From Sphingomonas sp. AOB5 (GTDB lineage Bacteria; Pseudomonadota; Alphaproteobacteria; Sphingomonadales; Sphingomonadaceae): 64,000 nt of DNA. Position 1 is the stretch's first letter, and the number at the start of each line of letters is the position of its first letter. The position numbers and the translations under genes were made by a program. Location: assembly GCF_029433115.1 (NCBI RefSeq), contig NZ_JARNTV010000002.1, forward strand, positions 1 to 64,000. The letters run 5' to 3'. This document shows, piece after piece, positions 42,112-44,552 of this stretch. The notes beneath the pieces were generated by a model, which made no database searches, was not told the DNA's origin, and was given only the letters and a program-made list of their open reading frames with translations.

Positions 42112-42669
42112 ATGGGCGAGACGGCGTTCTGGAAGACGCTCCATACGACAGGACATGACGCCGCCTTGCTGGCCGAGGCGGGCAAGGGCTGGCGGCTGAG
42201 CGGCACGGCGGTGTTCCTCCACGAAGGCGCGCCGGCCTGCCTCCACTATGCGCTGGATCTCGAACCCGATTGGTCGACGCGCCGCGGCCGTATCGACGGC
42301 TTTGTCGGCACGAAGCCCGTGTCCCGCCGGATCGAGCGGGATGCCGAAGGCTGGACTCTGGATGGCGTACGGCAAACCGGCGTCGCGCATTGTGTCGATC
42401 TCGACCTCGGCTTCACGCCTGCGACCAATTGCCCGCAGTTGAAGCGGATGGGACTTTCCGTCGGGCAATCCGCTTCGATCGATGTCGCGTGGCTGGATGT
42501 CGAGTCCGATACGCTGATCGCACTGCCCCAGATCTACAAGCGCACGGGGAACGACACCTACGATTATAACTCGCCGCAAGGGCCGTATCTCGCCACGCTC
42601 CACATCGCCGCCAATGGGTTCGTGAGCGACTATCCCGGGCTCTGGATTTCATGTTGCGCTGCAACATAA
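42112..42669 (+). CDS. Putative glycolipid-binding-fold protein
   Basis: The 185-residue cytoplasmic protein contains the strands expected for the PF06475 family (glycolipid-binding): GLSVGQSASIDVAWLDV, LPQIYKRTGNDTYDYNS, and FVSDYPGLW near the C-terminus, with DLGFTPATNCPQLKR in the middle. The family name comes from a structure-based proposal; a cellular role is not established. It follows pgk by 31 bases. A perfect 7-bp inverted repeat (ATGTTGC - GCT - GCAACAT, 42651-42667) spans its last codons. Confidence 0.75.
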   Translation: MGETAFWKTLHTTGHDAALLAEAGKGWRLSGTAVFLHEGAPACLHYALDLEPDWSTRRGRIDGFVGTKPVSRRIERDAEGWTLDGVRQTGVAHCVDLDLGFTPATNCPQLKRMGLSVGQSASIDVAWLDVESDTLIALPQIYKRTGNDTYDYNSPQGPYLATLHIAANGFVSDYPGLWISCCAAT

Positions 42670-42795
42670 ATGCTGGACAAGCGCGAGCCGGGCTGCCAAG
42701 GGGCGGCTCTGGATTGTGCTGTTTCGTTGGGGCTCGTGAGACCCCGCGGGCGCGGGCGGCGTACCGTACCGTGTTCCACGGCGCAGATCAGACAT

Positions 42796-42866
42796 GAAAA
42801 TGTAGCTCAGCGGTAGAGCACCCGGGGAACCGGGCTGGCGAAGGTTCGAATCCTTCCTTTTTCCCA
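42796..42866 (+). ncRNA. tRNA-like element 1, anticodon arm closed by a tetraloop
   Basis: Acceptor GAAAATG (42796-42802) pairs at six of seven positions with CTTTTTC (42857-42863); D arm GCTC-AGCGGTA-GAGC; T arm GAAGG-TTCGAAT-CCTTC; CCA follows directly at 42864-42866 without a discriminator base. Where an anticodon arm should be there is CCCGG-GGAA-CCGGG, a perfect 5-bp stem with a GNRA tetraloop instead of a 7-base loop, so no anticodon can be presented. This is not an ordinary tRNA; it may be a degenerate copy or a non-decoding tRNA-like RNA. Confidence 0.5.
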
Positions 42867-42867
42867 C

Positions 42868-42944
42868 GCTCAGTGGTTGAGCAGCAGACTGTTAATCTGT
42901 CGGGCGCGCAAGCGTCCTCCGCAGGTTCGACTCCTGCACTGGCC
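42868..42944 (+). ncRNA. tRNA-like element 2, GTT anticodon with long variable arm
   Basis: D arm GCTC-AGTGGTT-GAGC, anticodon arm GCAGA-CTGTTAA-TCTGT with GTT (Asn) at 42891-42893 and the normal T33, T arm GCAGG-TTCGACT-CCTGC. Between them lies a long variable arm GGGCGC-GCAA-GCGTCC, although tRNA-Asn is a short-variable-arm tRNA. The 3' acceptor strand ACTGGCC has no complementary 5' strand: the sequence there belongs to the CCA end of element 1. It is therefore either incomplete or part of a composite RNA. Confidence 0.45.
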
Positions 42945-43280
42945 TTCGAAGCCATTCCTGATGGGAAGGCCGGCAGGGTGTTCACGCCGAGGGAAGGGCG
43001 TTCCGGCTTCGGCCGGCGCGCGCAGCCCGAGGCAGTCGGTGACCGGCTCAGCGCCGGCGAGGATACCGGCAGCGCGCTGAGGGGCGTGCGGCGTTCGTAC
43101 CGGGATCGGGGCTGGCCCCGATATGTCCGCGCGAACGGCAACCGCCCCGGCACCTGCCTCAATCGCCAGCCCGCACGATCATCGGCGAACAACCCGCCGG
43201 CCGACCCTATCCCCCAAGATAACCCGACCTCCATGCCGCGATTTTGCGCCGTGTATCGACGCGTCTTGTCATCGCCACGA
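42945..43280. other. Structured non-coding stretch before the SPFH gene
   Basis: No credible reading frame with a ribosome site was found in these bases. Several strong hairpins are visible: CCGGC-TTCG-GCCGG near 43002 with a UUCG-type tetraloop, GCCGG-CGAGGATA-CCGGC near 43053, and ATCGGGGC-TG-GCCCCGAT near 43105. With the tRNA-like elements upstream they could make one long folded RNA on the plus strand. Confidence 0.4.
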
Positions 43281-43310
43281 CATATAAGGATTTGCAGATT
43301 TCTTTATATG
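43281..43310. promoter_or_regulatory. AT-rich inverted repeat, possible operator
   Basis: CATATAAGGA (43281-43290) and TCTTTATATG (43301-43310) are inverted repeats matching at nine of ten positions around a 10-base spacer. It is strikingly AT-rich for this genome and lies 106 bases before the SPFH gene. It has the look of an ArsR-type regulator site, but that is inference. Confidence 0.35.
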
Positions 43311-43415
43311 CTGCACCGCAGCAAAATAACCGTTGCAATCGTTACTATGCCGGTCTAACGGCGCCGTCCCGCAGCGACACTCAGGTCGCGCGGATGAGCA
43401 AGAGGAGGACCGGCA

Positions 43416-44552
43416 ATGACGTTCGTTATCGCCGAAAACCAGCGCGGCCTCCTCATTCAGGATGGCCGCATCATCGATGTTCTGGGTCCGGGTCGTCACC
43501 GGATCTCGAACTGGCTGGGACGAAAGAGCGTGGAGATCGTTGACGCGATCGGCCTGTTCAACTCGCCCTGGGCCGAGATCATGGAAAAGCGCCATCCCGA
43601 ACTCGCTCAGGCGAATTTCGAGACGGTGCAGCCGGGCGAAGGCCAGGTCTGTGTCGTGTGGCTCGGTGAGCGCGCGGCGTGGATCGTGCGCCCGGGTCAG
43701 GTGATCCGTGTGTGGAAGGTGTTCGATACCGTCCGCGTCGACACGTTCGACGTTCTGGAGCGCCCGAAGCTCGACAAGCGCGAACTGGTGGCGTTCGAGA
43801 AGGCGGCGACGGTCGGCCCGGCCACGCCGGCGGTGATCGCGACCATCTCGGTCGCAGAAGCCGAGGCGGGTCTGGTGTTCTTCGACGGCGAGCTCGTCGA
43901 GACGCTCAGTCCGGGCCGGTACGGCTATTGGCAGATCGGCCGCAAGGTCACTGCCAAGATGCTCGACACCCGCCCGATCCCGGTCGAGGTTACCGCACAG
44001 GAGATCCTGACGAAGGACCGCGTGTCGCTGCGCGTCACCCTGACCTCGTTCGTGCAGATCACGGACGTGCGTCTGGCGGCGCTCTCGACCCCGGACCACC
44101 AGGGTCACGTCTACAAGCTGGTCCAGTTCGCGGTCCGTGAGGCCGTGGGCGGGCGGACGCTCGACGAGCTGCTCAACGATCGCGAGTCGGTCGACGCGCA
44201 GATCGTCGCGCATGTCCGGAACCAGCTTGGCGACATCGGCGTCCGCGTTGCCGAACTCGGCATCAAGGACGTGATCCTGCCGGGCGAGATGCGTGAGCTG
44301 ATCAACAAGGTCGTCGAAGCGGAGAAGGTGGCGCAGGCCAACCTGATCCGCCGGCGCGAGGAGACCGCGGCGACGCGGAGCCTGCTCAACACGGCGAAGC
44401 TGATGGAGGACAACCCCACGCTGCTGCGCCTGAAGGAGCTGGAGACCCTCGAGCGGGTGACCGAGAAGATCGGCCGGATCGACGTCCACACGGGCAGCCA
44501 GGGGCTTGGCGGCCTGCTCGACCAGCTCGTGACCCTCAAGCCGCGGGACTGA
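43416..44552 (+). CDS. SPFH/Band 7 domain protein (slipin-like)
   Basis: The 378-residue protein begins with a repeat-like segment (MTFVIAENQRGLLIQDGRII and again AEAEAGLVFFDGELVETLSP at about 149-168), followed by a Band 7 domain with TAQEILTKDRVSLRVTLTSF, VREAVGGRTLDELLNDRESV and a C-terminal helical region rich in E, R and L. There is no N-terminal membrane helix, unlike classical stomatins, so membrane attachment would need a partner. GAGGAGG lies 7 bases upstream. A strong terminator follows, making it a single-gene unit. It may organise membrane microdomains. Confidence 0.82.
   Translation: MTFVIAENQRGLLIQDGRIIDVLGPGRHRISNWLGRKSVEIVDAIGLFNSPWAEIMEKRHPELAQANFETVQPGEGQVCVVWLGERAAWIVRPGQVIRVWKVFDTVRVDTFDVLERPKLDKRELVAFEKAATVGPATPAVIATISVAEAEAGLVFFDGELVETLSPGRYGYWQIGRKVTAKMLDTRPIPVEVTAQEILTKDRVSLRVTLTSFVQITDVRLAALSTPDHQGHVYKLVQFAVREAVGGRTLDELLNDRESVDAQIVAHVRNQLGDIGVRVAELGIKDVILPGEMRELINKVVEAEKVAQANLIRRREETAATRSLLNTAKLMEDNPTLLRLKELETLERVTEKIGRIDVHTGSQGLGGLLDQLVTLKPRD

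Follow-up and report, generated by a model that had tools for sequence, protein, structure and literature searches.

What would a bacterium do with two adjoining tRNA-like RNAs, neither of which looks fit to serve translation? The question is raised by a stretch of 64,000 nucleotides (nt) from Sphingomonas sp. AOB5 (GCF_029433115.1, contig NZ_JARNTV010000002.1, positions 1-64,000 of the forward strand; hereafter the window), in which two tRNA-like structures (TLS) lie almost end to end on the forward strand, element 1 (TLS1) at 42796-42866 and element 2 (TLS2) at 42868-42937. Our analysis indicates that the two elements are the centre of a predicted structured and conserved RNA of ~480 nt (42729-43202), and that RNAs of this kind recur upstream of one family of SPFH/Band-7 proteins, whose member in the window is encoded just downstream on the same strand (43416-44552).

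Two tRNA-like elements in a larger RNA

The architecture that an earlier note had read from this DNA is borne out by the sequence. In TLS1 (body 42796-42863) the acceptor GAAAATG/CTTTTTC forms 6 of 7 pairs with one U-U mismatch, a D arm is present, the anticodon arm is CCCGG-GGAA-CCGGG (42821-42834), and CCA (42864-42866) follows the acceptor directly, without a discriminator base. TLS2 has a D arm, a 7-nt anticodon loop CTGTTAA with the GTT triplet (42889-42895) and a long variable arm closed by GCAA (GGGCGC-GCAA-GCGTCC, 42902-42917); its acceptor stem is lost, the 5' strand being absent. The T arms, GAAGG-TTCGAAT-CCTTC in TLS1 and GCAGG-TTCGACT-CCTGC in TLS2, have the TTCGA loops and complementary stems described in that note. 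Measured against a decoding tRNA, TLS1 with its GGAA loop lacks the 7-nt anticodon loop, and TLS2, with no 5' strand, lacks the 7-bp acceptor and CCA end.

The covariance-model search that the note had proposed also detected both elements: over the whole window, TLS1 scored 54.0 bits (E 8.1e-9) and TLS2 35.5 bits (E 9.7e-4, the match being confined to model positions 10-63) against the Rfam tRNA model (RF00005), which has a gathering score of 29. ARAGORN labels TLS1 "tRNA-???" with a two-base anticodon and did not call TLS2 in the window. In free folding TLS1 alone is ordinary for its composition (z score -0.13), while TLS2 reaches -1.5 or -2.3 depending on the ends used and the 150-nt pair -2.5. 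The genome as a whole holds 45 RF00005 matches, TLS1 and TLS2 included; the other 43 have ordinary anticodons by ARAGORN, tRNA-Asn(GTT) among them, and TLS1 and TLS2 are therefore extra.

Within a comparison set of 295 Sphingomonas genomes, the window's own included, Sphingomonas caeni LB-2 (G081) is the sole other genome with both elements at E < 1e-8; they are 81% identical to those of the window and occupy the same site between pgk and the SPFH gene. Conservation extends past the elements, from ~42729 to 43202. With the downstream block 42940-43220 as the query, seven of the 295 genomes, again including the window's, were found at E < 1e-11; in each, one or two tRNA matches immediately precede the block and an SPFH gene follows closely. 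When E values up to 0.001 were admitted, the same query reached 48 genomes, the other 41 by short, weak matches, one of which (G237) falls at a further SPFH locus.

Loci outside this set were chosen by protein alone. A first pattern scan of genome contigs gave no matches; a contig scan using an alignment of seven module SPFH proteins yielded 144 stretches with a pattern match, 83 of them encoding relatives, and the best 80 were kept (L148-L227). These come mostly from Alphaproteobacteria, with Acidobacteria and three gammaproteobacteria (Gynuella, Microbulbifer and Gilliamella) also represented.

Covariation was tested independently of any tRNA model in A6, a structure-free MAFFT alignment of 27 full RNAs (the window, the Sphingomonas loci G236, G033 and G312, L148-L169 and L198). 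Its row ends were set by hand at conserved boxes and the consensus structure was taken from A6 itself, which gives the test some built-in advantage. Of the 76 consensus pairs, 48 show changes on both sides. Paired cells make up 93.0% of the total, compared with 78.4% after shuffling; double-change cells number 292 versus 91.7, with 0 of 500 shuffles as high; and the covariation score is 0.416 versus 0.159. The shuffles ignore relatedness, and slid controls, which keep it, scored 0.064-0.092. The check for compensatory changes named in the earlier note thus came out positive, the stems covarying across species, and shows that the predicted RNA, with its two tRNA mimics, is conserved.

The predicted structure, all on the forward strand, opens with a 5' hairpin GGGG...CCCC (42729-42745; consensus helix 1), in which RNAalifold and pair counts on A6 give 96.8% of cells paired and double changes at 3 of 4 pairs. 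Box A, GTGTTCC (42771-42777), follows; its UUCC (42774-42777) would pair with GGAA at 42964-42967 in a long-range helix enclosing both TLS, for which A6 contains no double changes. The A6 fold and pair counts that place this helix also place a small hairpin (consensus helix 8, 42941-42953) 3' of TLS2. The 3' domain (42968-43202) is closed by GGCCG (42968-42972) and CGGCC (43198-43202), and each of its helices 9-16 has double changes, helix 11 excepted; in its core lies box B, GGATACCG (43061-43068). Of 68 alphaproteobacterial loci, 59 contain GTGTTCC and 60 the box B pattern, as against 1 and 2 of 68 when shuffled, and in several of these loci a T run comes directly after the closing helix of the 3' domain in A6. 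Apart from its tRNA-like parts, the RNA is absent from Rfam: with Rfam 15, RF00005 alone exceeded its gathering score in the window, in S. caeni, in five other Sphingomonas loci and in 14 further loci. Identity with tmRNA, a T-box or another Rfam family was rejected, as nothing but tRNA rose above gathering in the window and the loci scanned.

Association with one SPFH protein family

Linkage to the SPFH gene was counted in those loci, 76 of 80, whose upstream DNA spans at least 850 nt; the count covered same-strand structures within a zone of -900 to -150. A covariance model, R1, built from 42 ARAGORN calls in the same SPFH loci plus the window, finds at least one TLS in 75 of the 76 loci and two in 56; the members of the pair are 0-10 nt apart in 55 of these 56, and only six other R1 matches occur in these loci. 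ARAGORN alone reports at least one tRNA-like structure upstream in 73 of 76 (73 of 80 overall) and two in 35, and found none in 28 loci of other Sphingomonas SPFH genes (each taken with 1,500 nt of flanking DNA to either side of the match). The window shows the same arrangement, a tRNA-like RNA adjoining an SPFH gene. These counts show a linkage between predicted tRNA-like structures and this SPFH family in alphaproteobacteria, gammaproteobacteria and Acidobacteria.

The two members of the pair differ in what they keep of a tRNA. Features were tabulated for two-TLS loci (20 single-TLS loci being excluded), loops in the 56 loci plus the window and acceptors without the window; the loop-length script returned 7 nt for 39 of the 43 ordinary tRNAs of the window genome, so that about one length in ten may be wrong. 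Of 54 TLS1 anticodon loops measured, 10 have 7 nt and 21 have 4 nt, the latter including GCAA, GTGA, GCGA, GAGA, GGAA and TTCG; with 44 of 54 lacking a 7-nt loop, the non-decoding loop to which the earlier note drew attention is a common trait of the family. Of 55 TLS2 loops, 47 have 7 nt, and among those 47 U33 is present in 41 and A37 in 37. The TLS2 triplet takes 20 different forms, GTT (17) and TTT (5) being the commonest, and is the most variable part of the loop (entropy 1.4-1.6 bits versus 0.6-1.0 elsewhere). At the other end of the molecule, all 7 acceptor pairs form in 34 of 56 TLS1 (at least 6 in 48) versus 4 of 54 TLS2, of which 17 have a pair at position 1 and 26 at position 2. A discriminator followed by CCA is encoded by 35 of 56 TLS1 but by 8 of 54 TLS2. 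Pair counts made on R1 are biased, because the model was trained on the same loci and ARAGORN favours paired stems. As judged from these sequences, what TLS1 tends to retain is the acceptor end, with loss of the anticodon, and for TLS2 the reverse holds. In single-TLS loci, 14 of 18 loops measured have 7 nt.

The window conforms to this division with one further loss, that of the TLS2 5' acceptor strand, which is also missing in S. caeni. Among the 27 aligned RNAs, this loss and the long variable arm are common to the window and S. caeni only, and they are atypical of the family. At L175 (4544-4618), TLS2 likewise has no 5' acceptor strand and a long variable arm (alignment A4), a resemblance that looks like convergent change.

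The partner gene encodes a protein of 378 residues with an SPFH/Band-7 domain (PF01145, E 1.4e-26, 94.1 bits, cut-off 23.6). Its nearest solved sequences are stomatins (stomatin, E 8.4e-31), and its AlphaFold2 model (mean predicted local distance difference test score, pLDDT, 84.7; predicted template modelling score 0.60) matches the folds of stomatin, HflK and prohibitin, with longer alignments to the major vault protein (MVP; Foldseek E 1.7e-11, Z 11.9 against the whole model). The SPFH fold is common to all four, and solved relatives build rings or cages. The window protein differs from these relatives in its extra N-terminal beta domains, and the model begins with a strand; at the N-terminal position, stomatin and HflK have a membrane anchor. 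The N-terminal region modelled alone (pLDDT 91.6) has no Foldseek match at E < 0.001, its weak partial matches including Erlin2 (Z 6.8 over 43 residues) and MVP (Z 4.6). No match was obtained for three of the SPFH proteins in the PADLOC defence library.

A phage origin was considered and rejected for the pair. In blastn searches of phages (59 records) and of plasmids (8 records), no match covered over 80% of the query; among the matches listed (20 phage, 8 plasmid) coverage was a third of the query or less. Of the 20 phage matches listed, 19 coincide with annotated tRNA-Asn genes, and the rest fall where nothing is annotated. The SPFH protein likewise has no relative among viral contigs containing its peptide patterns, and no match in phages.

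RNA-repair context and related systems

In gammaproteobacteria the module is often found in the company of RNA-repair genes, RtcB more than RtcR. The wider Gynuella, Microbulbifer and Gilliamella loci contain both RtcR and RtcB. Within the order to which the Microbulbifer genome belongs, the SPFH protein was detected at E < 1e-40 in 19 of 244 genomes, and all 19 loci (L225 and L226 being two of them) have a same-strand TLS upstream, lying ~1.0-1.2 kb from the aligned SPFH start in three; RtcB is within 1.5 kb in 10 of the 19 and RtcR in 3. Gilliamella and E. coli have a sigma-54-like site ahead of the TLS or RNA, Citrobacter has one ahead of a T-arm piece and Microbulbifer one ahead of rtcB; the exact pattern occurs in 3 of the 19 loci and was not found in Gynuella. 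In published work, P. aeruginosa PA14_60630 is an SPFH gene within the rtc locus (PMC13086221), the Anabaena slipin alr0740 is raised together with rtcB in a trcR mutant (PMC10272220), and RtcR responds to damaged tRNA (PMC7790460).

Full TLS were found by R1 in Photobacterium and Burkholderia records. A Citrobacter record carries rtcR, slipin and nucleotidyltransferase genes, rtcR adjoining slipin, and an E. coli chromosome carries slipin and the nucleotidyltransferase; in the latter, the gap upstream of slipin has no annotated RNA in RefSeq. The E. coli locus contains GTGTTCC and GATGCCGG in the order of the alphaproteobacterial RNA, and this stretch looks like a reduced form of it. In E. 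coli (L268:3046-3574 and L272:3001-3529), box A, a T-arm hairpin, a box B-like piece and a sigma-54-like site precede slipin-nucleotidyltransferase. At least 80% of the length of the E. coli RNA gap plus slipin stretch is present in 1,621 of 5,426 complete genomes.

The window genome lacks this link to Rtc, as its RtcB is on another contig and RtcR was not found. There (L231:442-2721), the RtcB gene is followed by a gene whose product has a DQSGSMKG stretch that appears von Willebrand A-like by eye; ARAGORN found no tRNA-like structure in this 4.1-kb locus.

How much of this belongs to a known system? Burroughs and Aravind are said to have described, in 2016, SPFH/Band-7 modules with "a novel tRNA-like molecule" in RNA repair. 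The general kind, an SPFH protein with a tRNA-like RNA, is thus probably already known; the same protein stands beside a tRNA-like RNA in both cases, and the tie to RtcR/RtcB in gammaproteobacteria is present in Gynuella, Microbulbifer and Gilliamella. The window differs from those modules in being uncoupled from Rtc, in its pgk neighbourhood and in having two TLS within a larger covarying RNA, and the two-part design, the full RNA and the Rtc-free version look new. In the literature searched, of which coverage was partial so that the negative is weak, none of the papers listed deals with this RNA, and a set of four papers listed in full contains none that joins "SPFH" with "tRNA-like". The bacterial Y RNA YrlA (RF02553), which accompanies Rsr/Ro60, likewise mimics tRNA and belongs to an RNA-repair operon that includes a scaffold or cofactor protein; the module of the window has an SPFH partner rather than Ro. 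We rejected an identity with YrlA, which has no match in the window and whose score at the S. caeni locus, 15 bits (E 5), falls below its gathering score of 69; the Ro60/Rsr (TROVE) protein was found in 0 of 10 module-carrying Sphingomonas genomes (a control search was positive in 1 of 14, Deinobacterium).

Upstream palindromes in Sphingomonas offer a hint of regulation. In the window, TTGC-N3-GCAA (42654-42664) lies upstream of the RNA, as in 5 of 7 Sphingomonas loci, and CTGC-N3-GCAG (43311-43321) upstream of the SPFH gene, as in 7 of 7 (the others being G081, G236, G252, G167, G033 and G312); both are on the forward strand and are possible operators. The combined pattern YTGC-N3-GCAR was seen in only 1 of 20 other RNAs checked (L153, before the RNA). 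Across the whole window it has 12 matches against 6.6 expected, a mild enrichment, so that a single match means little while the repeated position does carry weight. The pattern resembles PhaR-type operators, and the palindromes suggest that a shared regulator other than RtcR may act here. No sigma-70-like site was found in 42560-43430. A looser promoter-like pattern precedes 9 of 27 RNAs, the window's not among them (TLS1 position was estimated in four rows of the palindrome and promoter check, G033, L158, L160 and L169). A terminator reading was discarded, the sole terminator-like match in 42560-43430 being the TLS1 T arm with the U-rich acceptor strand and not above shuffles.

Among the neighbouring gene clusters, ten proteins were scanned. 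A GMC oxidoreductase (13 loci) and a threonyl-tRNA synthetase-like protein (8 loci) recur and were rejected as parts of the module, both being far from universal. A putative glycolipid-binding gene (PF06475, 42112-42669) lies between pgk and the RNA in the window; comparison with six other Sphingomonas loci did not turn it up there.

A tRNA mimic for an RNA-handling scaffold?

The explanation that we lean towards, with moderate confidence, is that the RNA and the downstream SPFH protein belong together, with the RNA as partner of a scaffold involved in handling or sensing damaged tRNA. The SPFH protein, as a scaffold that forms a ring or cage, would display the RNA and make up a particle with it. 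TLS1 would contribute a tRNA elbow and a CCA end but no anticodon that can be used, and TLS2 an elbow and an anticodon loop but no usable acceptor end. Because the features are split in this way, neither TLS should decode and each could dock an enzyme for one tRNA end. Such a particle would probably concentrate, sense or protect damaged tRNAs together with their repair or processing enzymes; damaged tRNA is suggested because the module sits beside RtcB and RtcR in gammaproteobacteria. On the genomic pattern, then, the RNA probably serves a particle for RNA repair or RNA guarding rather than protein synthesis.

Several observations weigh against this interpretation. Binding of the RNA by the SPFH protein is something we infer from linkage alone. 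The module is rare in Sphingomonas (10 of 295 genomes), where RtcB occurs in 3 of 7 genomes with it and 4 of 14 without, and RtcR in 1 of 10 with it, none being found in the other 9, which include the window's. One of the 76 loci, L160, has no TLS at threshold and 19 have one only, and in E. coli and Citrobacter R1 recovers just a T-arm-like piece (13.9 bits), so that two full TLS are not essential everywhere. Neither of the exact box patterns was found in the 4 Acidobacteria and 3 gammaproteobacterial loci tested, and the larger RNA is thus established only for Alphaproteobacteria, plus the likely E. coli form.

Might the elements simply be tRNAs, past or present? The earlier note had offered three readings: a non-decoding tRNA-like RNA, a composite RNA, or eroded tRNAs. 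The first two gain support from covariation and from recurrence upstream of one protein family; the third does not, and the larger RNA and the SPFH gene had escaped the note altogether. Decay of two tRNA genes would account for a TLS2 without an acceptor in a genome with ordinary tRNAs elsewhere, yet it is refuted by recurrence in 75 of 76 loci together with strong covariation, and we give it a negligible probability. Working tRNAs of unusual shape, processed from the transcript for use in translation, are very improbable: some TLS are near-normal (L199 scores 70.4 bits) and CCA is encoded in many TLS1, but the rarity of the 7-nt loop in TLS1 and the seldom-paired position 1 and seldom-encoded discriminator and CCA of TLS2 argue otherwise, as do triplets that differ among relatives and the tRNA-Asn(GTT) already present in the window genome. 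A cis-acting role is easier to entertain. As a leader in the 5' untranslated region, the RNA could sense, for instance, a tRNA-binding protein or an uncharged CCA end and control the SPFH gene, in keeping with the way it precedes that gene, on one strand with it, in the loci counted and with the sigma-54-like site before it in Gilliamella and E. coli. However, the alphaproteobacterial 3' domain closes on itself, with a T run behind it in several loci, the Sphingomonas SPFH gene has its own upstream palindrome, and to our knowledge the size and double tRNA mimicry of the RNA exceed those of known leaders; we consider this role unlikely.

A more specific version of the scaffold explanation would make TLS2 a bait or sensor for anticodon nucleases, cut instead of or along with real tRNAs while the SPFH scaffold holds the RNA, cleavage either absorbing the toxin or signalling damage. 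TLS2 keeps its 7 nt, U33 and mostly A37 while its triplet varies most, RtcR responds to damaged tRNA as noted above, and Hughes et al. raise a competitive-inhibitor role for the tRNA-like YrlA. Against these stand the lack of a recognised nuclease gene beside the module among the ten neighbour proteins scanned, a GTT dominance that fits tRNA-Asn-like ancestry as well as selection, and the reported failure to detect YrlA fragments in Salmonella. Bait is therefore a tentative suggestion that we hold possible though doubtful. More speculative, and rather unlikely in our estimate, is a vault-like ribonucleoprotein, in which a soluble SPFH cage would carry an RNA with the working ends of a tRNA set out on two separate mimics, keeping the capture of acceptor-end enzymes apart from that of anticodon-end enzymes or toxins. 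TLS2 loops, with their varied triplets, would be evolving bait for tRNA-cutting toxins, and Sphingomonas would have left the RtcR circuit for another regulator; the N-terminal region alone gives weak partial matches only.

The wider significance lies in an RNA that recurs across several bacterial groups without an Rfam family of its own, and parts of which ARAGORN reports as tRNAs with odd or impossible anticodons. The present analysis gives a covariation-supported structure for an RNA that would be the partner of those SPFH proteins that are linked to RNA repair, and poses the question of why a cell should keep two tRNA mimics, each preserving the half that the other has lost. As the E. coli form is common, the RNA can be studied in a laboratory species.
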